Source: Pseudomonadales bacterium
GTDB taxonomy: Bacteria > Pseudomonadota > Gammaproteobacteria > Pseudomonadales > Azotimanducaceae
Direction: 5' to 3'
NCBI GenBank assembly: GCA_012103505.1
Contig: WLWP01000001.1
Span: 744,001-808,000, forward strand
DNA length: 64,000 nucleotides
Program-made: the position numbers and the translations under genes
Part shown: positions 6,914-22,855 of the stretch, piece after piece
Layout of the letters: each line of letters starts with the position of its first letter
Position numbering within the stretch: position 1 is the stretch's first letter
The notes under the pieces: model-generated
What the model saw: the letters and a program-made list of their open reading frames with translations, nothing else
Told to the model about the DNA's origin: nothing
Database searches by the model: none

Positions 6914-9900
6914 ATGACAAAGCAACTTCACGAAAATCCGACAGATGATCAGTTACTGCGCAAGGACGTGTTCCGTCGACGCCGTGGCAAGTTGAGCCAA
7001 CGGCAAACGGAACGGTCGATGTTGTTAGTAAACCGACGAGCTGAGGTACTACAAAGTTTAAACACAGAACTCACGCCTGACCTGCCGGTCAGTGATGCAG
7101 TAGAAGAGTTGCAAACCGCCCTCCATGAAAGCCAGGTAGTCGTTGTCGCCGGTGAGACAGGATCGGGCAAAACCACGCAACTACCGAAGTTGTTGTTACA
7201 AGCCGGGTTGGGGGTTCGTGGCTCGATCGCGCATACCCAGCCCAGACGCCTCGCGGCCAGAACGGTTGCGAATCGAATAGCGGAAGAAACGGGATGCCAA
7301 CTCGGACAGGGCGTTGGGTTTGCGGTCCGTTTCGCCGATGCAGTTTCGGACGAGACTTTGCTGAAGGTGATGACTGACGGTTTGTTGCTTAATGAGATTC
7401 GCAGTGATCGGTTCTTAGACGCCTACGACGCAATAATTATCGATGAAGCACATGAGCGGAGCCTCAACGTTGACTTCTTGCTTGGATATCTCAAGCGCCT
7501 GTTGGCGCGGCGAAAAGACCTTAAGGTGGTGGTTACTAGTGCCACGATTGATGTCGAGCGTTTCAGCAAATTCTTTAACAATGCGCCCATCGTCCAAGTT
7601 GGTGGTCGGACGTTTCCCGTGGAAATTGTTTACCAAGAAGAGCCCGAGGAACTTTTCGACGGAGTCGTAGATGCGTTAACAGATATCGAAACGCAACCTT
7701 ATCGGGGGGCGTCGGATGTTCTGATTTTCTGTTCTGGTGAGCGTGACATTTTTGATCTAGCCCATGACCTACGCCGCGCTTACCCAGATAGGTACGAGGT
7801 CTTGCCGTTGTACGCACGACTATCCTTTGCCGAGCAAAGGCCGCTGTGGGCGCATCGCACCCGGCGTCTGTTATCGGCTGTTTACGAGCCAAGATTTTGA
7901 CTCTCGACCAGATTTCACCGACCCCGAGATCCGACGGGTGAACCTCGCCGGGGTAGTTTTACAAATGGAAGCGTTCAATCTTGGTGACATTCAGACGTTT
8001 CCATTTGTCGATCCACCAGATCCACGCGCAATCAGAGACGCTATGCGCTTGTTGGATGAGCTGCAGGCCATCAAAGGCGGTCGATTATCGAAGATAGGTC
8101 GGCAGATGGCGCGACTCCCGATTGATCCAAGACTTGCTCGGATGTTGGTGGAGGCAAATCAACAGGGTTCATTGAAAGAACTGTTAATTGTAGTTTCGGG
8201 TTTAGCAGTACAGGATCCACGCGAGCGCCCGATGCAGAAAGCCCAAGCTGCGGATCAAAGTCACCAGGCTTTTGCCGAACCACGTAGTGACTTCCTCGGT
8301 TATCTCAAATTGTGGGAGTGGCTTGAAGAAGAAAAGCAAAACTTAACTAACAGTCGTTTCAAGCTGGTACTTGCCAAACGCTTCGTCAATTTTCTTCGCG
8401 TGCGCGAATGGCGAGAAGTGCACCGGCAGCTTAGAAGTGTGTGCCGGGACTTAGGGTGGCGTCTCAACGAAAGCCCTGCGAGCTACGGCGCGATACACGA
8501 AGCGATAGTCTCAGGCAGTCTGAGTCTAATTGCTCAACACGACGAAAAAGGGGTGTACCTGGGTGCTCGCAATCTCAAGCTCCGTATCTTCCCTGGCTCA
8601 GGGCTCGCAGATAAGACACCGAAATGGATCGTGGCTGGAGAGATAGCAGAAACTAGTCGAGTGTATGGGCGTTCGATTGCCAAAATTGAACCTGGTTGGA
8701 TTGAGCGGCACGGGCAACACCTCGTTAAGAAGAGGTATTCGGAGCCGAGTTGGAGTCCTAAGCGCGGTGAGGTGACCGCCAAGTTAACTGTAACTCTTTA
8801 CGGTCTTGTGCTTGCTGACAATCGCCTTGTGAGCTACGAAAAAGTAGACACCGTAGTTTGTAGAGATCTCTTTATTCGGGACGGATTGGTTGCTGGGGCG
8901 TTGGAGCCAATTCCTCAATTCCTACTCTCCAATCTGAAATTGGTGGGGCAAATCCGTGATCAAGAGGCAAAAGAGCGTCGCAGGGATCTCCTGATTAGTG
9001 ATGATGTGATTCACGCGTTCTATGACGAACGGTTACCAACGGGTTTGTGTAAGGCAGAAGATCTGCGTCGTTGGATCGAGAAGGGTAGTAACGCTCAAAC
9101 CCTCAGTTTCGACAGAGAATTTCTCCAACAGCAAGAGAGTGCCTTATCGGAAAGCGAGATGTATCCCGGTGAAGTCGCTATGGGAGATCTTAGGCTTCGA
9201 CTTAAGTATCGGTTTGCGCCAGGAGAGGTGGATGATGGCGTTACCCTGATTGCACCCGTTGGATTGTTGCACGAAGTGAGAGGGGAGGTATTGGAATGGT
9301 CGGTGCCAGGGTTTTTTGCCAGCGTTGTTGAAGCTTGGCTGAGGACCTTACCCAAGGCGAAGCGCAAACACTTAGCGCCAATGCCTGAGAAAGTTGAAGA
9401 ACTCAGCAAGTATTTGCTCGGGCAGGGGCGCTATCGTGAAGGACGATTGTTGTCACAACTTCAGAAAGTTCTGAAGGATTGGTATCGCGTAGACGTAGAT
9501 GAAGTTGATTGGGATCGCACTCGCATAAGTGATCATCTACGCATTTACGTGTCTGTTGTTGACGAACGGGGTAAGCGTATACGTGGCGGGCGGAACATCC
9601 TCGAGATAAAACAATCCGTGCAACGACAAGCCGAGTCTTTACCCGTGGCCGCTATTGAACAAAAAGAAGCGCTAGGTCTGACCGCGTTTCCTGAGGACGA
9701 AATCAAAGAGAGTCTGGTGCTTGGCAAGCGAACGAATAGAGTGATGAAGTTCCCTGGCTTGGTCGATCAGGTCGCGACAGTCGATATGCGTCTCTTCGAC
9801 GATCGAAACACCCGAGATCGCGCTCATCGTGGTGGGCTCGTACGTCTCGCTTTACTCGGATTAGGCAAAGTGGGTAGATACTTTCGCAAAGAACTCGATA

Positions 9901-10580
9901 AACATCCGCAGATGGGTTTGCATTTTGCCGCGCTTGGATCTGCCAGCGAACTCAAGGATGAAATACTCAGATCTGTCGTTTGGCGTTGCTACTTTGAAGG
10001 GTATGAACTGCCAACTGACAAGGGAGGATTTGAACGCCGGTTGCAAGAACATCGCTCGGAATTGGCGACAGTCTTCACAACTACAGTCGATGCCCTTGCC
10101 GAAATATTGGCGTTACGCTTCGAGTGCGGTAAAACGCTCACTACGCTCGATTCTAAGGCTTACGAGAAGAGCAAGCTGGATATAGAGACCCAGTTGTACG
10201 AATTGGTACCACGGGAGGTACTAAACGTCACGCCCGCCCAGTACTTTGACTTGGTACCGAGATATTTGCGCGGCATTGAACGGCGTTTGCATAGCCTGCC
10301 GGGTCATGTTCCGAAGGATCAGAAACAAATGGAGTTGATTGCGCCTTTTGAAGCTAGATTGGCGAAGTTGTCGACTAGTGAGTTATACAATGAAGCCACC
10401 GAGATGGATTTAAGGTGTTTACTTCAAGAAGTTCGTTTGACGTTGTTTGCTGAGCCGATAGCTCGGCAAAAGGTGGACAACCACCCCCTAATCCAAACCT
10501 ACGGTAAGCAGTGGAAGGCCTCGCCTAAGCGTCTTGAACAAGCACTGAACGCTGAGGAGCGTCGATTAGGGTTATTGTAG
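6914..10580 (+). pseudogene. hrpA: ATP-dependent RNA helicase HrpA, disrupted by an internal frameshifting deletion
   Basis: HrpA is a DEAH-box helicase of about 1300 aa that rescues stalled ribosomes. The first frame (from 6914) has Walker A GETGSGKT, DEAH and SATIDVERF, and runs to VLPLYARLSFAEQ near 7837. The second frame picks up at about 7836 with KGRCGR, then DSRPDFTDPEIRRVNLA, and runs intact to the C-terminal DUF3418-type region at 10580. Compared with the remembered family sequence, about 64 residues between LSxxEQ and KGRCGR are missing, including motif V (ATNVAETSLT) and part of motif VI. The deletion length must be 2 modulo 3. Without it the total would be about 1285 aa. Either the gene is inactivated or the assembly lost about 190 bases. 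Everything outside the junction looks functional. Confidence 0.88.
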
Positions 10581-10699
10581 CCCCCGCGTAGGAGCAATTC
10601 TGCAACCTTTGAACGAAATCAATTGATTGTGGTCCTAGAATAAGAACGTGTAGTCTAAGCGTTCGCGCAAAATTACTTAGATCCAGTGGAGAATTGTTG

Positions 10700-11113
10700 A
10701 TGTTGAATAGAAAAATGAAACCTGTAGCTGCTGCGGTTGGCTCTGCATTTGTTGCTTCCGTAGCTGCAACAAGCGGTGCATACGCCGAGGACCAGGTGTT
10801 TGCTGCCGATGAACTTGACCAGGGTTATAACCTACTCGCTGAAGCTGAAGGCAAGTGCGGCGAAGGTAAGTGTGGTGAAGGTAAGTGCGGCGAAAGTGAA
10901 GGCGACGATAAAGACGGCGAAGGCAAGTGCGGCGAAGGTAAGTGCGGCGAAGGCGACGACAAAGACGGCGAAGGCAAGTGCGGTGAAGGCAAATGCGGTG
11001 AAGGCGATGACAAAGACGCCGAAGGCAAATGCGGAGAAGGCAAGTGCGGTGAAGGCGATGACAAGGACGCCGAAGGTAAGTGTGGCGAAGGCAAATGCGG
11101 AGGCGCAGCCTAG
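10700..11113 (+). CDS. hvfA: HvfA-like precursor peptide with 11 EGKCG motifs (oxazolin/bufferin-type RiPP)
   Basis: The precursor is 137 aa. Residues 1-29 form a Sec signal peptide ending AYA before ED. A linker (residues 30-49) is followed by low-complexity sequence: EGKCG three times, then pairs of EGKCG separated by acidic spacers such as EGDDKD. All 11 cysteines lie in EGKCG motifs. HvfA peptides with this motif are known substrates of HvfB (DUF692, MNIO) enzymes, which turn the Cys residues into oxazolone/thioamide groups that bind copper. The two genes that follow encode exactly that pair of enzymes. The start at 10700 is chosen for the TGGAGAA site 6 bases upstream; a TTG two codons earlier is less likely. 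The likely role is periplasmic or secreted copper sequestration. Confidence 0.9.
   Translation: MLNRKMKPVAAAVGSAFVASVAATSGAYAEDQVFAADELDQGYNLLAEAEGKCGEGKCGEGKCGESEGDDKDGEGKCGEGKCGEGDDKDGEGKCGEGKCGEGDDKDAEGKCGEGKCGEGDDKDAEGKCGEGKCGGAA
10847..11101 (+). repeat. Tandem repeat array encoding EGKCG pairs and acidic spacers
   Basis: The core of the precursor gene is built from 51-nt units encoding EGKCGEGKCGEGDDKD plus Gly or Ala. There are three full units after a first, longer block (three EGKCG and a spacer with an extra ESEG start), then a final unit cut to EGKCGEGKCGG. Units differ mostly at synonymous third positions (AAG/AAA, TGC/TGT, GGC/GGT/GGA), which points to old repeats kept under protein-level selection. 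Copy number could vary between strains. Confidence 0.9.
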
Positions 11114-11145
11114 TCCAAGTAAAATGAGAGACTGAGGGCGTTACG

Positions 11146-12003
11146 TTGCTAGCAGTAGAAGCCGCGAATACGTTTCCCTTAGCAGGCGCAGGTCTAGGCC
11201 TGCGTCGAGGGATGTTTCAGATGCTCTCAGACTTAACCAATGACGACGTTGACTTCATGGAAGTCGCGCCGGAAAATTGGATCGGAATCGGCGGCCGCTT
11301 TGGCCGCCGTTTTCGTGAATACGCCGAAAGATTTCCTATTGTGTGTCATGGCTTGTCACTTTCGATTGGCGCTCCCGCGCCGTTGGATGTTGAGTTCGTC
11401 CGAGAAGTTGGTCAATTTCTACGCGAGTTTAACATCCGGGGTTACTCCGAACATTTAAGCTACTGTAGTGACGACAAAGGTCACCTATATGATCTTATGC
11501 CGATTCCATTCACGGAAGAGTCGGCCCATTACGTGGCTGGACGCGTACGCCAAGTACAAGACATTCTAGGCACCCAGATAGCCTTAGAAAATGTGAGTTA
11601 CTACGCAGCGCCAGGCCAGGAGATAGACGAACTCTCTTTTGTAAACACGGTTTTGCAGGAAGCGGATTGTTTACTGCTGCTTGATGTAAATAATATTTAT
11701 GTGAACAGCGTGAACTTTGGTTATGACCCCCACCACTATTTACAGAATTTGGATCTTAAGCGAACAGCGTATGTACACGTTGCCGGTCACTTTTGTGAGG
11801 CTGAGGACCTAAGAATAGATACACACGGAACGACCGTTGACGCCGAAGTTTGGTCCCTGCTCGAGGCAGCTTACGAGCTGATCGGTCCAGTACCGACATT
11901 GTTAGAGCGAGACTTCAACTTTCCACCTTTGCCAGAGTTACTAGGTGAGATCAATCAAATTCGAACTCTGCAAAAGGCCCCTAAAACCGTGCGTCCGAGT
12001 TGA
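11146..12003 (+). CDS. hvfB: HvfB-like DUF692 (MNIO) oxidative enzyme
   Basis: This 285 aa protein is a multinuclear non-heme iron-dependent oxidative enzyme of the DUF692/MbnB family, the core modification enzyme for cysteine-rich RiPPs. Visible family motifs are HGLSLSIG (H68), YSEHLSY (H103), LENVSYY (E148), LLLDVNNIYVN (D180), HVAGH (H211, H215), DTHG (D225, H227) and ERDFNFP (E254). These supply the His/Asp/Glu ligands of the iron cluster. A TTG start is used, with GAGGGCG 6 bases upstream. It lies 32 nt after the precursor gene, and its stop overlaps the start of the partner gene (TGATG). The predicted reaction is oxidation of Cys in the EGKCG motifs to oxazolone/thioamide. The family call is firm; the product chemistry is inferred from known HvfA systems. 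Confidence 0.93.
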   Translation: MLAVEAANTFPLAGAGLGLRRGMFQMLSDLTNDDVDFMEVAPENWIGIGGRFGRRFREYAERFPIVCHGLSLSIGAPAPLDVEFVREVGQFLREFNIRGYSEHLSYCSDDKGHLYDLMPIPFTEESAHYVAGRVRQVQDILGTQIALENVSYYAAPGQEIDELSFVNTVLQEADCLLLLDVNNIYVNSVNFGYDPHHYLQNLDLKRTAYVHVAGHFCEAEDLRIDTHGTTVDAEVWSLLEAAYELIGPVPTLLERDFNFPPLPELLGEINQIRTLQKAPKTVRPS

Positions 12004-12821
12004 TGTACAAAGGGCGAAACAGCCGAGATTTTGTTGAGACTCAAATCGAGTTCGCGTCTTATATTCGCAATCCAGAGCTCAACGACGAACCAGACGGAAT
12101 TGAGTCGCGTCGCCTGCGCATCTATGCAGAGCTATTTTTCAACAACGTTAAAAATTTCCTTTCTACTACTTTCCCGATCGCAAAGGCGTGCTTGGGCGAG
12201 GCGGACTGGCAAGCACTGTGTCGCGAATTCTTTCATCGACACCCAAGTGAGTCCCCTTATTTTGCTGAGATCTCGCAGGAGTTCTTAACTTTTCTAAGTG
12301 AGCGCTGTGCGCCTACAGATCGTGTTGACCGTACCACTGTTTCTTCAGAAAAGTTGGCAGGAGTTAAACTCAATGAAGAAAGGTTGTTGCCTGACTATTT
12401 GCTTGAGCTTTGTCACTACGAATGGGTCGAACTGAGTCTCGACCTGGCGGTTGCAGACCAGGGGGAGATGCTGAACGAGCAAGAAGTACTTGGCGAGATT
12501 CGCGTGTCTAGTGAAGCAAGATGCTTGAGTTATTCTTACCCGGTTCATCGAATTGGGCCAAATCATATTCCTTCGGGGCCGGAACAGACCTTTCTGGTGG
12601 TCTACCGTAAAGATGATGAGATTCGATTTTTGGAGACCAATCAACCGACGATGAGAGTTATGAATTTGTTGGCGTCCCATCGCGCAGACGATGCTCTGCT
12701 ACGCGTCGTCTCTGAACTTAAGTCTCCAGGAGCCGCGATTGATCAAGAACGTGTTGTTGCAAATGGAACGGCTCAGCTGGTGAAATTTGCCGAGCTCGGT
12801 ATCCTCAGGAAAAGGCTCTAG
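12003..12821 (+). CDS. hvfC: HvfC-like DUF2063 partner protein
   Basis: The product is 272 aa with an N-terminal DUF2063 domain. Family features are RRLRIYAELFFNN near residue 37, LSTTFPIAKACLGEADW near 52, and YFAEISQEFLTFL near 85. In known systems this protein forms a complex with the DUF692 enzyme and presents the precursor to it. The ATG at 12003 shares its A with the upstream TGA stop, so translation is coupled; a TTG one codon earlier is possible. No DoxX-type (BufD) gene follows, so the operon has three genes. Cytoplasmic location is expected. Confidence 0.9.
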   Translation: MYKGRNSRDFVETQIEFASYIRNPELNDEPDGIESRRLRIYAELFFNNVKNFLSTTFPIAKACLGEADWQALCREFFHRHPSESPYFAEISQEFLTFLSERCAPTDRVDRTTVSSEKLAGVKLNEERLLPDYLLELCHYEWVELSLDLAVADQGEMLNEQEVLGEIRVSSEARCLSYSYPVHRIGPNHIPSGPEQTFLVVYRKDDEIRFLETNQPTMRVMNLLASHRADDALLRVVSELKSPGAAIDQERVVANGTAQLVKFAELGILRKRL

Positions 12822-12905
12822 AGAGCCTATTTCCACTTGTATCTGGCTGCTATGAAGAGTAGGGTGCCGCTCGCAATTCAAGAGCATTCCGGCGCTACCC
12901 ATTCG

Positions 12906-14063
12906 ATGAATCTATTGGTGCTAGACCCGGGCCCTGGTTCGACAGAGGCACCAGCTATTGGCGCCCTCGGTAATCTGACGAACGACAGGCTGTCCGCGCT
13001 AGGCTACAAAACCCACTTAACAGCAGACACAACCGCGGCCTTAGAGATGGCCGAACAAGGTTCAGCTGCTTTGGTTTTCTGCTGTCAACAAAATGCGCTA
13101 GCGTCATTGCAGAATCTGAAAGCCGGGGTCGGTCTCTTCCTGGTGACCCAAGAGCCCTTATCCCATGGTGCCCTTGTCACGGCGATGCGTGCCGGTGTCG
13201 TTGACTGCTGGATTCTCGATCAAGACGACCAGATTGCGGCGCATATTGACAAGGCAATCAACCGCTCCGCCCATCTGCTTCGAGCGCTGAATGCTGAGGT
13301 CACTGAAATGCGATCTGAGTTGGAACGTGATCAGCGTGCTGGCCAGTACATACAGATGGGCATGCTACCCCCAAATCCGATGGCGATTGGGCATTTCCGA
13401 CTCCAGCATCGAGTCGAACCGTCATTGATTCTCAGCGGCGACTTTGTCGATTACTTTCAGATTACTGATCGCTATTTTGCTTGTTATGTCGCCGATGTTG
13501 CAGGGCATGGTGCGTCTTCGGCATTCGTGACGGTCCTGCTGAAGAATTTTTCACGGCGTCTGCGTCGAGAATACCGAGTATCCATGCTAGCTAACCCCGG
13601 CGAGATTTTGGCGTGGATAAATACGGAACTCATAGACCAAGGCATCGATAAGCATGTCGCGATGTTTTTAGCGACCATCGATATACGAGAAAACAAACTA
13701 CACTTTTCGAATGCAGCTCATTTTCCACCAGCCGTGATCGTCTCCGAACCAGGGGGAGAGTACTTGGAACAAAAAGGTAAACCCTTGGGCCTGTTCGAAG
13801 GTCTGTCTTTTGCGTCCAAACACACAGATTTTCCCGTTGGATCTCGCCTTGTGGTCTTTTCGGATGGCGTACTCGACCTTGTCCCGGACGAAACGATCCT
13901 TGCCAAGGAGGCCTACCTCGCACAGGCGATTGAGGACTGTCACTCAATGGACACATTATGGGCACGGCTTGATACCACCAGAATCGGTGCGGATGATGTG
14001 AGCTGTTTGATGATCCATCATGGCGAAGCGAAGTCTGTTGCATCTCATGAGCAAGTCGCGTGA
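12906..14063 (+). CDS. HsbR-like PP2C/SpoIIE phosphatase with a degenerate receiver domain
   Basis: The likely start MNLLVLDPG gives 385 aa; an ATG at 12852 would add 18 residues. Residues 1-120 resemble a response-regulator receiver, but the strand that should carry the phospho-acceptor reads ALVFCCQQ with no Asp, and the usual Lys near the end is absent. A short coiled coil (about 125-150) leads into a PP2C-type SpoIIE phosphatase domain with LSGDFVDYF, ADVAGHGASSAF, VFSDGVLDL and DDVSCLMI. In Pseudomonas, HsbR has this layout and controls the STAS protein HsbA; here a STAS gene overlaps the 3' end by 4 nt. The lack of Asp suggests control other than phosphorylation of the receiver. Confidence 0.82.
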   Translation: MNLLVLDPGPGSTEAPAIGALGNLTNDRLSALGYKTHLTADTTAALEMAEQGSAALVFCCQQNALASLQNLKAGVGLFLVTQEPLSHGALVTAMRAGVVDCWILDQDDQIAAHIDKAINRSAHLLRALNAEVTEMRSELERDQRAGQYIQMGMLPPNPMAIGHFRLQHRVEPSLILSGDFVDYFQITDRYFACYVADVAGHGASSAFVTVLLKNFSRRLRREYRVSMLANPGEILAWINTELIDQGIDKHVAMFLATIDIRENKLHFSNAAHFPPAVIVSEPGGEYLEQKGKPLGLFEGLSFASKHTDFPVGSRLVVFSDGVLDLVPDETILAKEAYLAQAIEDCHSMDTLWARLDTTRIGADDVSCLMIHHGEAKSVASHEQVA

Positions 14064-14563
14064 GTGGAAGAATATTGGTTGGTGATCACGGTGGGGTCTA
14101 CGTGCTTCGTTTCGAAGGTGATGTACGGGTCACCCTTTCAGGGTCATTCGACCACTATATGCAAAAAATGTTGGTCGATGGCAGCCTAGATTCAGTCTTA
14201 GTCGATCTAACGGATGCGGTCGCGATAGATAGCACTTCTTTAGGCGTACTTGCGAAACTCTCCATCCAGCTGCAAAAAGAGCGTGCGCGTTTGCCGACGC
14301 TGGTGTGCCAGTCGCCCGATATCCTCCGAGTTCTCAACAATATGGGCTTTGACGACGTGTTCGCGATTGTTGATGAGAATTTTCATCGCGATCAAAATCT
14401 TGCCGAACTTCCGATGGCCAACGATATGTCTGAGGAGACATTGCGTGGCCGAGTCATAGAAGCACACAAGGTCTTAATGGCGATGAACACGCAAAACGAA
14501 AAGACCTTCAAAGATCTTGTCGAGGCACTTGAGACGGAACAAACATCGGCACGAGCCTCCTAG
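14060..14563 (+). CDS. HsbA-like STAS-domain anti-anti-sigma factor
   Basis: This protein of 167 aa has an N-terminal STAS domain (about residues 1-105). The conserved phosphorylation segment reads AIDSTSLGVLAKL, with the target Ser/Thr in the helix start. A helical tail (about 120-167) follows, as in HsbA of Pseudomonas. The GTG start overlaps the phosphatase stop by 4 nt, so the pair is translated together. The expected role is as a partner switch between an anti-sigma factor (FlgM in Pseudomonas) and other targets, with the upstream phosphatase resetting its phosphorylation. Targets in this organism are unknown. Confidence 0.82.
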   Translation: MSGRILVGDHGGVYVLRFEGDVRVTLSGSFDHYMQKMLVDGSLDSVLVDLTDAVAIDSTSLGVLAKLSIQLQKERARLPTLVCQSPDILRVLNNMGFDDVFAIVDENFHRDQNLAELPMANDMSEETLRGRVIEAHKVLMAMNTQNEKTFKDLVEALETEQTSARAS

Positions 14564-20387: not shown

Positions 20388-22855
20388 TTACTGAACAAGC
20401 ATCGCGGCACTGCCTAACACAGATGCACACGCTGCCTTAACGACGCGCTCAGTCCGGTCTGATTCACAGCTACCGCCACAAGCGATGAGACCATCGACGA
20501 GACTGTTCACTTCTGCGCGGAGAGCGACGAGATCCGGTTGAGTCCCGATCCCGTTACCGACCATGTTATCTATGAGCGGGTCAAGGAGCAGGTCACGGTC
20601 ATTGAACGCGGTCACTTGGCTCGTGCCGAATGGAAAACCAGGGAAGTACGCGGTACGCAGACCCGGGTCGTCAACCAACACGGAACAGTACTTGATCGCG
20701 AGTTGTGTGATGCCCATTTGTTGTGAGGATATAAACCCAGCGATGTTCGGCGTAACAGGCATAGCCTGGTGCACGAGTTGATAGGTCGTTGCGACTTCGT
20801 TGTTGGAAGAAGGGATATCTATCACCAGCGACATCGTTGCGTTGATTTCTGCAAAGTCGCGGATGCCAAGCTCCGGACTTCTAGGCAAGTCTGGTGGCGG
20901 AGGTAATGGTGACGGATCCGCCTCAACAACGACGTTTGTCTCACCGGCTAGGACTTCGAAGGTTAGGAAGAACTCGTCCAGAGCTGGACCTTTCTCCAAT
21001 GGAATAACCGTGCCGAGATCAGAGAGCCTCTGGAATCCTTCTACCGCGTAGGCAGCATCGGTAATGTCCGTATCAAGAGCGGCGAAAGCTTGGCCTACAG
21101 CGGCTTCACGTCCGTTGATACCAATCCGAACGCCCGATATCGGGATCGATCCTGGTGTAGCTTGACTGTCGAGAATCGCGAAGAACGGCTCGTCAAAGAG
21201 ATAACTATAAGAGTCGAATTGACTGACTTCGAAGACGATGTAGGCATCGGTAATACCAATGTGATCGCTGACGTTAAACAGTAAGAAGTACTTCTCGCCG
21301 ACGCCAATGTCGAAGTTTTGCAAGATTTGATCGCTAGTGAGCGCGCGATTGTGTACCGCTAAGAGGCGCACTGTGCCAGCCCAGCGATTGTCGTTGTCGA
21401 CTTCGCTCGCAACGGCAAACGCAAACGTGTCATCCCAGTCGTTGAGTAAGCCACCCGGAACGGCGTCAGGATCGTCGGTGAAGGCGCCGTTGACATAGAT
21501 GCTGCGACCATTGGCTGGATCGTAGGTCACCACGACATGCTGAAGAGTTGCTTGCAGGTCTTCATCAGCGTCAGCTGTGGAGAGTTGTGGTTCTCCCCCT
21601 TGGTCAGTCTGGTTTGAGCGGTTAAAGGTATCGTAGTTGTACAACGTTTGACCGAGCATGAAGTTTCGGTTCATTGATCCGCCAGAGTAGGTCACGATCC
21701 GCGCAGGACCATCTTGGGTTACGTTCCCTGGGGCGACCCAGGCTTCAATTGAATATTCGCCTGTTGCCGTGATCAGGTTGCGTAGCTTTGCACTTGCTGT
21801 GGTTGAGCCTTGCGCTTTGCCATCAATAAATTGCACACCCCAACCACCGACCCAGTTGTAGGCCCCACTGAGTGATAGGTTCAGCTTGGCTCGATCCCAG
21901 AGGTGTCGTACACCGTTGTGCCGCTGCCGGTCTTAAACTCATATAGCGCGATGACATTGGTTTCGTGGCGACCACCGGCCGAAGATATTATGCCGTCTAC
22001 GAGTGACAACGCTTTTGATGTGACCAGGCTAGGATCCACCTGTGTCGGCGTTATAGCATCAGAAAAAGTCGTGATCGCGGCCTGCATAGCGCTTGAGTTA
22101 CTCGGACAATCGTCCCAGCAGTTGTGGAATTCTGAACCGAGTCTGATGACGAACCGAGAATTAGCAGGTGTTTCTAGATCCATTCTCGTCAAAGCTGCTG
22201 AATACGCTGCGTCTACATCGGTACTCGCGAAGAATGGACTTTGTGGTACAGCTGCGGAGTCTGCATGGCAACCAGCGCAGTAAGTATTGAGAAGTGGATA
22301 GACAGTAGTACTGAACAGCGTAGAGTCAGCAGGGAAGTTCTTACTAGAACCGGGGTCTAGTAGAGGTGGCGCCTCCAATTCGATTTCACGTCCTTGAGAA
22401 CCTAAGGCGCTGCCTGCCCAGTTCGAAATATACGACTCAATGATGTCCCCGCAGGCGTCATCGCTCGCGAGCCAGCAGTTATGTCCACCGCGAACTTTTT
22501 GCACCATTAACGAATTGCCTGGGTCGGCCAGGTCAACAATGCTGTTGGCTTCCGAATAGGCAAGATTGATATCGTCAGCCCGGACAAATCGAGGGTTCTG
22601 AGTTTCGTTGTGACAAGAGCCACAACGGTTGTTAGGGACGAGGTTGTCCCACAACGCGAGTTTAAAGGATTGCACGTCCGCCGTAGCTGGCGCCGGTCCC
22701 GTGTAATTTCCCACACTAGGATTGCTCGTTAGCGGGTTTTCAGATGTACCCGCACCGCTGCCGCTGCCGCAAGCAGAGAGGATGATGATCAGGCCGCTTA
22801 GGAAGACTGCGTGCATCAAATTGTTTTTAGAACTTATATAGCTAGACATTGACAT
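20388..22855 (-). pseudogene. Diheme/LamG lipoprotein gene split by a one-base frameshift
   Basis: The first part (from about 22855 or ATG 22849) has a lipobox IILSAC, two c-type heme motifs (CGSCH and CAGCH) and cysteine-rich NCWDDCPS segments. It runs into ALYEFKTGSGTTVYDTSGIEPS and a TGA at 21881-21883. The next frame continues directly with LNLSLSGAYNWVGGWGVQFIDG and a LamG/concanavalin-like domain (YSIEAWVAPGNV, HVVVTYD, NRALTSDQI), ending at 20388. FDTSG-to-GAYNWV is a typical LamG entry, so this is one gene of about 820 aa with a base missing near 21884-21887. It is probably a surface or periplasmic lipoprotein for electron transfer or ligand binding. It sits between the CxxCH gene and the DUF1501-like gene. 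Confidence 0.85.

Follow-up and report, generated by a model that had tools for sequence, protein, structure and literature searches.

Which known pathway do three adjoining plus-strand genes, hvfA, hvfB and hvfC, represent in the window, i.e., the whole 64,000-nucleotide stretch of Pseudomonadales DNA analysed here, and does the lack of a doxX gene beside them mark a new variant? An initial annotation had read the set as an HvfA/B/C-type operon for a copper-binding, cysteine-modified peptide in a minimal three-gene version. The gene order follows from the window sequence and its open reading frames (Table 1), and the HvfB, HvfC and KCGExKCG domain models are all passed, in agreement with the HvfA/B/C-type identity. 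We are confident that hvfABC is a captophorin operon of the EGKCG type, related to oxazolin, fontiphorin and the Microbulbifer Mmr peptide; within this family, it is unremarkable apart from a lead on its regulation that can be tested.

Table 1. Features of the hvfABC operon and its immediate neighbours, in window coordinates.
Feature	Position	Strand	Description and evidence
hrpA, C-terminal part	7764..10580	+	DUF3418, OB and HA2 domains; upstream neighbour, outside the pathway
Candidate ECF-sigma (sigmaE-like) promoter, TGAACG-N15-GGTCCTA	10610..10637	+	Likeness to relatives' sites
GGAG, Shine-Dalgarno-like	10688..10691	+	8 nt before the ATG of hvfA; sequence
hvfA	10700..11113	+	Precursor, 137 aa, 11 EGKCG; NF050137 (general KCGExKCG precursor domain model), 116.3 bits, cut-off 19.5
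Predicted Sec-type signal peptide of hvfA	10700..10786	+	29 aa, AYA^ED; by eye
Leader motif FAADELDQGY of hvfA	10799..10828	+	Relatives' motif F-x4-[LMV]-x2/3-G-[YF]
Core of hvfA	10847..11101	+	11 EGKCG; four 17-residue units EGDDKD[GA]EGKCGEGKCG
hvfB, MNIO (DUF692) maturase	11146..12003	+	285 aa; NF003818, PF05114, 3BWW
TGATG, hvfB stop/hvfC start overlap	12001..12005	+	Sequence; ATG of hvfC at 12003
hvfC, DUF2063/PME1 partner	12003..12821	+	272 aa; NF050145, PF09836, PF22106, 3DEE
rssB-like SpoIIE phosphatase	12852..14063	+	PF07228, 99 bits; NF045505, 201.2 bits, below cut-off 700
rssC-like STAS protein	14060..14563	+	PF01740, 44.5 bits; NF045506, 168.7 bits, below cut-off 250

All three reading frames of the operon are intact. 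TTG at position 11146 was taken as the start codon of hvfB, since the next in-frame ATG seen, at 11209, would truncate the conserved GAGLGLRR sequence. The TGATG coupling between a DUF692 (MNIO) gene and its DUF2063 partner, as described in the annotation, is present, and both products pass their family models. Upstream, hrpA is split into two overlapping open frames (6914-7900 and 7764-10580); in many relatives, it is a single open frame of about 1300 aa, and the split in the window is either a true frameshift or an assembly error.

The precursor HvfA carries EGKCG at residues 50, 55, 60, 74, 79, 91, 96, 108, 113, 125 and 130, matching the annotated number, and all 11 of its cysteines fall within these motifs. 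Its export, likewise claimed by the annotation, is predicted by inspection of the N-terminus, which displays a basic n-region, a hydrophobic stretch and an AYA site; this terminus is conserved in 17 aligned relatives. The leader motif given in Table 1 is present in 72 of 83 relatives' precursors (those with at least two [KR]CG, recovered for 83 of the 97 listed loci described below), and FAADELDQGY is a probable docking segment for HvfC. When the four 17-residue units of the core are compared in six pairs, which are not independent, 36 synonymous changes over 58.0 sites are found vs 4 non-synonymous changes over 248.0 sites; the predominance of synonymous differences indicates that the repeated protein sequence is maintained. 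In the NCBIfam search, the precursor stays below the cut-off of the oxazolin HvfA equivalog NF050188 (74 bits vs 95), and it is the only EGKCG-type precursor match in the window's genome. The AlphaFold model of unmodified HvfA, limited by 18 aligned sequences and by the unmodified state of the cysteines, reaches only low confidence over its whole length (mean pLDDT 43.9), and its helices are confined to residues 10-24 and 36-51. The published model of a Buf_EGKCG type 1 member is a beta-helix (PMC12452194); the low-confidence HvfA model shows none and, thus, lends this fold no support.

The hvfB product passes the HvfB model NF003818 (423.5 bits vs a cut-off of 360), which places the DUF692 enzyme inside the HvfB/BufB clade, a placement on which the annotation had beforehand made its reading depend. 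It further matches PF05114 (MbnB_TglH_ChrH; 334.3 bits) and PDB entry 3BWW (E 7.5e-78), stays below the cut-offs of the ApyH and ChrH models, and reaches 48 bits vs a cut-off of 325 for the MbnB equivalog. HvfC lies above the thresholds of NF050145 (229 bits vs 142), PF09836 (DUF2063; 92.5 bits vs 27.2) and PF22106 (NGO1945_C), and matches PDB entry 3DEE (E 3.6e-6). The HvfB pocket residues R20, R21, D256 and F257 are kept in 96, 97, 98 and 98 of 98 aligned sequences, respectively. Judged by motif and similar spacing, with FonB itself outside the alignment, they are likely equivalents of FonB Arg15, Arg16, Asp249 and Phe250, which are reported to govern selectivity or to act as the proposed base for Lys-Cys substrates (PMC13097082). 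The window's genome contains one MNIO gene.

Since three-gene clusters have already been published, the operon adds one more member to an established family, and the absent DoxX does not define a new variant; the gene content given in the annotation stands. According to the available text of the sources cited here, the fon cluster of Fontimonas thermophila comprises only MNIO, PME1 and precursor and is called a minimal case (PMC13097082), and mmrABC of Microbulbifer is presented as a set of three genes (PMC12538549). fonABC shares with the window its gene content, the EGKCG repeats and probable counterparts of the Arg/Arg and Asp/Phe residues, but seven modified sites are reported for it (PMC13097082), compared with 11 motifs known from sequence alone in the window. 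mmrABC, whose product is bulbicupramide, likewise has three genes and paired EGKCG cassettes, yet its spacers are Lys-rich and it has five to eight cysteines (PMC12538549), whereas the window has acidic DDKD spacers and 11 cysteines. The Haemophilus influenzae oxazolin operon has paired EGKCG motifs and the HvfB/HvfC families in common with the window, as well as a signal peptide, which in the window is predicted, but includes a DoxX-like HvfX, and six cysteines are modified (PMC13419390); in the window, DoxX is not among the eight neighbours screened. The bufferins Buf1/Buf2 and methanobactin also depend on an MNIO superfamily enzyme acting on cysteine; however, their precursors belong to other families, and the window's HvfB scores under the BufB and MbnB cut-offs.

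For EGKCG precursors, HvfB/HvfC-type pairs are reported to remove 4 H per cysteine (PMC13097082, PMC12538549). The resulting ring has been reassigned from oxazolone/thioamide to 5-thiooxazole (PMC13097082; introduction of PMC13419390), and the ligand named in the annotation has to be revised correspondingly. In other species that have this enzyme pair, EGKCG peptides bear the ring and bind copper (PMC13097082, PMC12538549): fontiphorin and gonophorin bind Cu (PMC13097082), and bulbicupramide binds Cu(I) but not appreciably Fe(III), Ni, Zn or Mn (PMC12538549). From these relatives, we infer the chemistry and copper binding of the window operon; the homology favours the cysteine modification and copper binding proposed in the annotation. 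HvfC, the RRE-bearing partner, would hold the precursor via the leader FAADELDQGY, and the iron enzyme HvfB would act on each Lys-Cys pair before export, taking four hydrogens. Oxidation of the cysteine and ring closure with the preceding Lys carbonyl oxygen would yield 5-thiooxazole, giving a product with up to 11 rings and a mass change of about -44 Da. The predicted signal peptide would then carry the matured chain, acidic and probably flexible, into the periplasm, where its thiolates could bind Cu(I) and buffer excess metal.

The genomic surroundings were compared across 97 non-duplicate MNIO loci, i.e., the best 80 by similarity to the window's HvfB plus 17 from genome relatives, a sample that leans to close relatives; 26 of 123 locus ids had been removed because they duplicated another place or came from the window's own genome, and the window is not among the 97. 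In the loci listed, 38 have hrpA upstream of the hvf genes, 33 have a DoxX gene no more than 3 kb away, and the two occur together in none (0/97); flanks were adequate for the no-DoxX call in 36 of the 38 hrpA-linked loci (2 too short) and for the no-hrpA call in 24 of the 33 doxX loci (9 too short). Neither gene is present in 14 adequately flanked loci, and 12 are beyond judging. Downstream, rssB follows in 32 of the 38 hrpA-linked loci, is missing from four with an adequate flank, and two are cut. The gap between hvfC and rssB, taken over the 36 loci with rssB, amounts to 0.7-1.4 kb in 23, to at most 0.2 kb in eight, and is larger in five; of the 22 gap proteins, 10 were searched against Pfam, and every one of these is MlaA. 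hrpA-hvfABC-(mlaA)-rssBC is, hence, a recurrent neighbourhood, which is added here to what is known of the family. Microbulbifer loci such as L009 and the window have the hrpA-rssBC surroundings in common; mlaA lies between hvfC and rssB in L009 but is missing there in the window, with one match elsewhere in the window's genome. Among the eight window neighbours run through Pfam (VWA/CoxE-like, HrpA C-terminal part, SpoIIE, STAS, TerB, Dus, LpxC and methyltransferase), there is no copper, metal-sensor or DoxX gene, consistent with the absence of DoxX noted in the annotation; five DoxX matches lie in the genome away from the hvf genes. In an HvfB tree, built by a quick method with SH-aLRT support only and with row labels predating the DoxX correction, the window falls into a set of 19 rows (itself included; SH-aLRT 97), of which 18 are hrpA-linked and one has an unreadable flank. 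The hrpA-linked loci cluster yet form no single clade, with five changes of linkage over the linked, doxX and neither rows and eight when unjudged rows are added.

Within the genus, 37 genomes were sampled (the window's included; 12 of them under 90% complete, and the genomes not independent). Of these, 29 carry hrpA and rssB on the same strand of a single contig, and eight are unreadable. hvfB is found between them in nine of the 29, with 2.3-3.4 kb between match ends, and not at the junction in the other 20, where hrpA and rssB are 145-328 bases apart; six of these 20 have hvfB elsewhere and 14 have none. hrpA-rssB is an old neighbour pair, and hvfABC was inserted into or lost from the space between. 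Because the pair also occurs without hvfABC, the rssBC neighbourhood is weaker as a functional clue, and a sigma-S link through rssBC was dropped as evidence. This either/or junction allows a natural comparison of related genomes that have the operon with others that lack it.

A lead on regulation comes from the aligned upstream regions of the window and seven relatives, eight in all. Six of the seven relatives read [GT]GAAC[CT]-N15/16-GGTC[AT]TA or near it, and the seventh, L003, has such a site just outside the aligned stretch. For 78 loci, the window included, 300 bases or more of upstream sequence were available; in these, [GT]GAAC-N15-18-GGTC precedes hvfA in 14 of 38 hrpA-linked regions (the window being one of the 38), in none of 22 doxX regions and in 1 of 18 others, compared with 42 of 4286 background stretches. 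Since the pattern was chosen after viewing eight of these regions, a fair count takes only the 30 remaining hrpA-linked regions, of which 6 contain it (L009, L012, L049, L059, L063 and L115). In 500 rounds of Markov resampling of the 38 regions, the mean was 0.42 and the maximum 4, vs 14 observed. With a leave-one-out weight matrix, the 99th percentile of background (scored with the full matrix) was exceeded in 18/38 hrpA-linked, 3/22 doxX and 3/18 other regions, and the 95th in 25/38, 8/22 and 3/18, respectively. Given these 8 of 22, the signal may extend beyond the hrpA-linked form, and doxX loci may carry a related, weaker one. The window's own site, at the 98.7th percentile of background, is weak when taken alone and, thus, only suggestive. 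Two higher-scoring sites in the window, at 21673 and 23285 on the minus strand, lie within long open frames and are probably chance matches.

The element resembles the Escherichia coli sigmaE promoter (-35 GGAACTT, -10 TCAAA; PMC2893595), and ECF control of such clusters has a precedent in H. influenzae, where the homologous DoxX/COG3767/COG3220/DUF2063 cluster is RpoE2 (ECF)-dependent and HOCl-induced (PMC7907618). By these likenesses, ECF control of the window operon is only suggested; hvfA expression may depend on an ECF-type sigma factor acting in trans, in response to envelope or oxidative stress, and not on a local copper sensor. For the copper-responsive transcription that the annotation proposed to test, there is no local indication: the eight neighbours include no copper or metal-sensor gene, the upstream element looks ECF-like, and the Microbulbifer MmrA-C proteins went undetected in proteomes with added copper (PMC12538549). 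A search of a limited set of papers that did not ask for the motif itself met no published conserved promoter for the hrpA-linked, doxX-less form; the recurrent element offers a concrete test of the operon's regulation. A scan for sigma-70 promoters and terminators was uninformative (2 and 3 sites vs 1.8 and 2.7 in shuffles). As a separate observation, L002, L003, L112, L118 and L119 share a further stretch before the hvfA start codon, approximately CCAACGGGCC...GAGGGAGCC in the better copies, perhaps a leader-RNA hairpin, which is missing from the window.

As to other copper functions, neither TIGR01511 nor PF00122 finds a P-type ATPase in the window's genome (G000; 5.8 Mb, rated 99% complete), while both match in 14 of 14 control genomes. 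A strong P-IB ATPase match (E below 1e-100) occurs in 9 of the 10 genus genomes with hvfB beside hrpA or rssB (among them G031, whose contig ends before hrpA), the exception being the window's genome, vs none of the 27 others, seven of which have hvfB elsewhere; when completeness of 90% or more is required, the counts become 9/10 and 0/15. Both hvfB at the junction and the P-IB match appear to track a single lineage whose genomes are mostly larger, and their association is therefore at least partly by descent. Besides G000, 27 of the 37 genus genomes have no strong P-IB match. Heavy-metal RND models gave 14 matches, none over the cut-off. An 18.4-kb contig of G000 (C4, L140) encodes a CopA-type oxidase, CopB, DoxX and a CsoR-type repressor family match. 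Its GC content is 44% and its tetranucleotide correlation to the window 0.31, compared with 0.93-0.95 for four window pieces and 0.84 and 0.92 for two other chromosome stretches. C4 is likely a contaminant or mobile element, and its CopA/CopB-type genes were not accepted as the organism's own; given that the congener stretch L115 scores only 0.47, a deviating composition is no proof of foreign origin.

Against this background, other readings of the locus can be weighed. That the operon belongs to the bufferins proper (Buf1/Buf2), outside the EGKCG group, is exceedingly improbable: the enzyme superfamily is the same and the BufB model is matched (E 4.6e-76), but the score of 255.6 bits lies under the BufB equivalog cut-off of 310 while that of HvfB is exceeded, the precursor has no DUF2282 match in the Pfam and NCBIfam model search, and its cysteines are confined to EGKCG, so that the model scores already contradict this assignment. 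Very unlikely, too, is an unexpressed relic kept by its stable neighbourhood alone. The many genus genomes without hvfB at the junction, the weak promoter copy and the absence of the mlaA that relatives have in this position would suit a relic; the three intact frames, the few non-synonymous differences among the repeats and the retained enzyme residues all argue for a maintained operon.

More weight is due to the view that the main role of the modified peptide is not copper buffering but the scavenging of hypochlorite or other oxidants, or the binding of gold or silver, within an ECF-controlled stress response. The ECF-like element, the RpoE2/HOCl control in H. influenzae, the eight neighbours and the undetected Mmr proteins all point in this direction. 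Moreover, in the available text, the authors of the Microbulbifer study are reluctant to assign copper protection to Mmr and unable to say under which conditions or for what purpose the operon is expressed (PMC12538549). Considering the copper binding of fontiphorin and gonophorin and the metal preference of bulbicupramide, we nevertheless judge such a role rather unlikely. For the captophorin operon itself, a wider and distinctly speculative proposal, to which we give little credence, would be that the doxX-less, hrpA-linked form belongs to a sigmaE-like (ECF) envelope-stress set and serves as the main periplasmic copper buffer, replacing Cu(I) export where the P-type ATPase is apparently absent. 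If true, envelope-stress control would explain why Mmr went undetected with copper alone.

Two loci harbour precursors with deviating motifs. In the closely related L112 (69% for HvfB across the tree alignment), the precursor at 8768-9136 on the minus strand combines six EGQCG with four EGKCG, and the precursor of L120 bears EGMCG; these variants constitute natural tests of the residue permitted before the cysteine.
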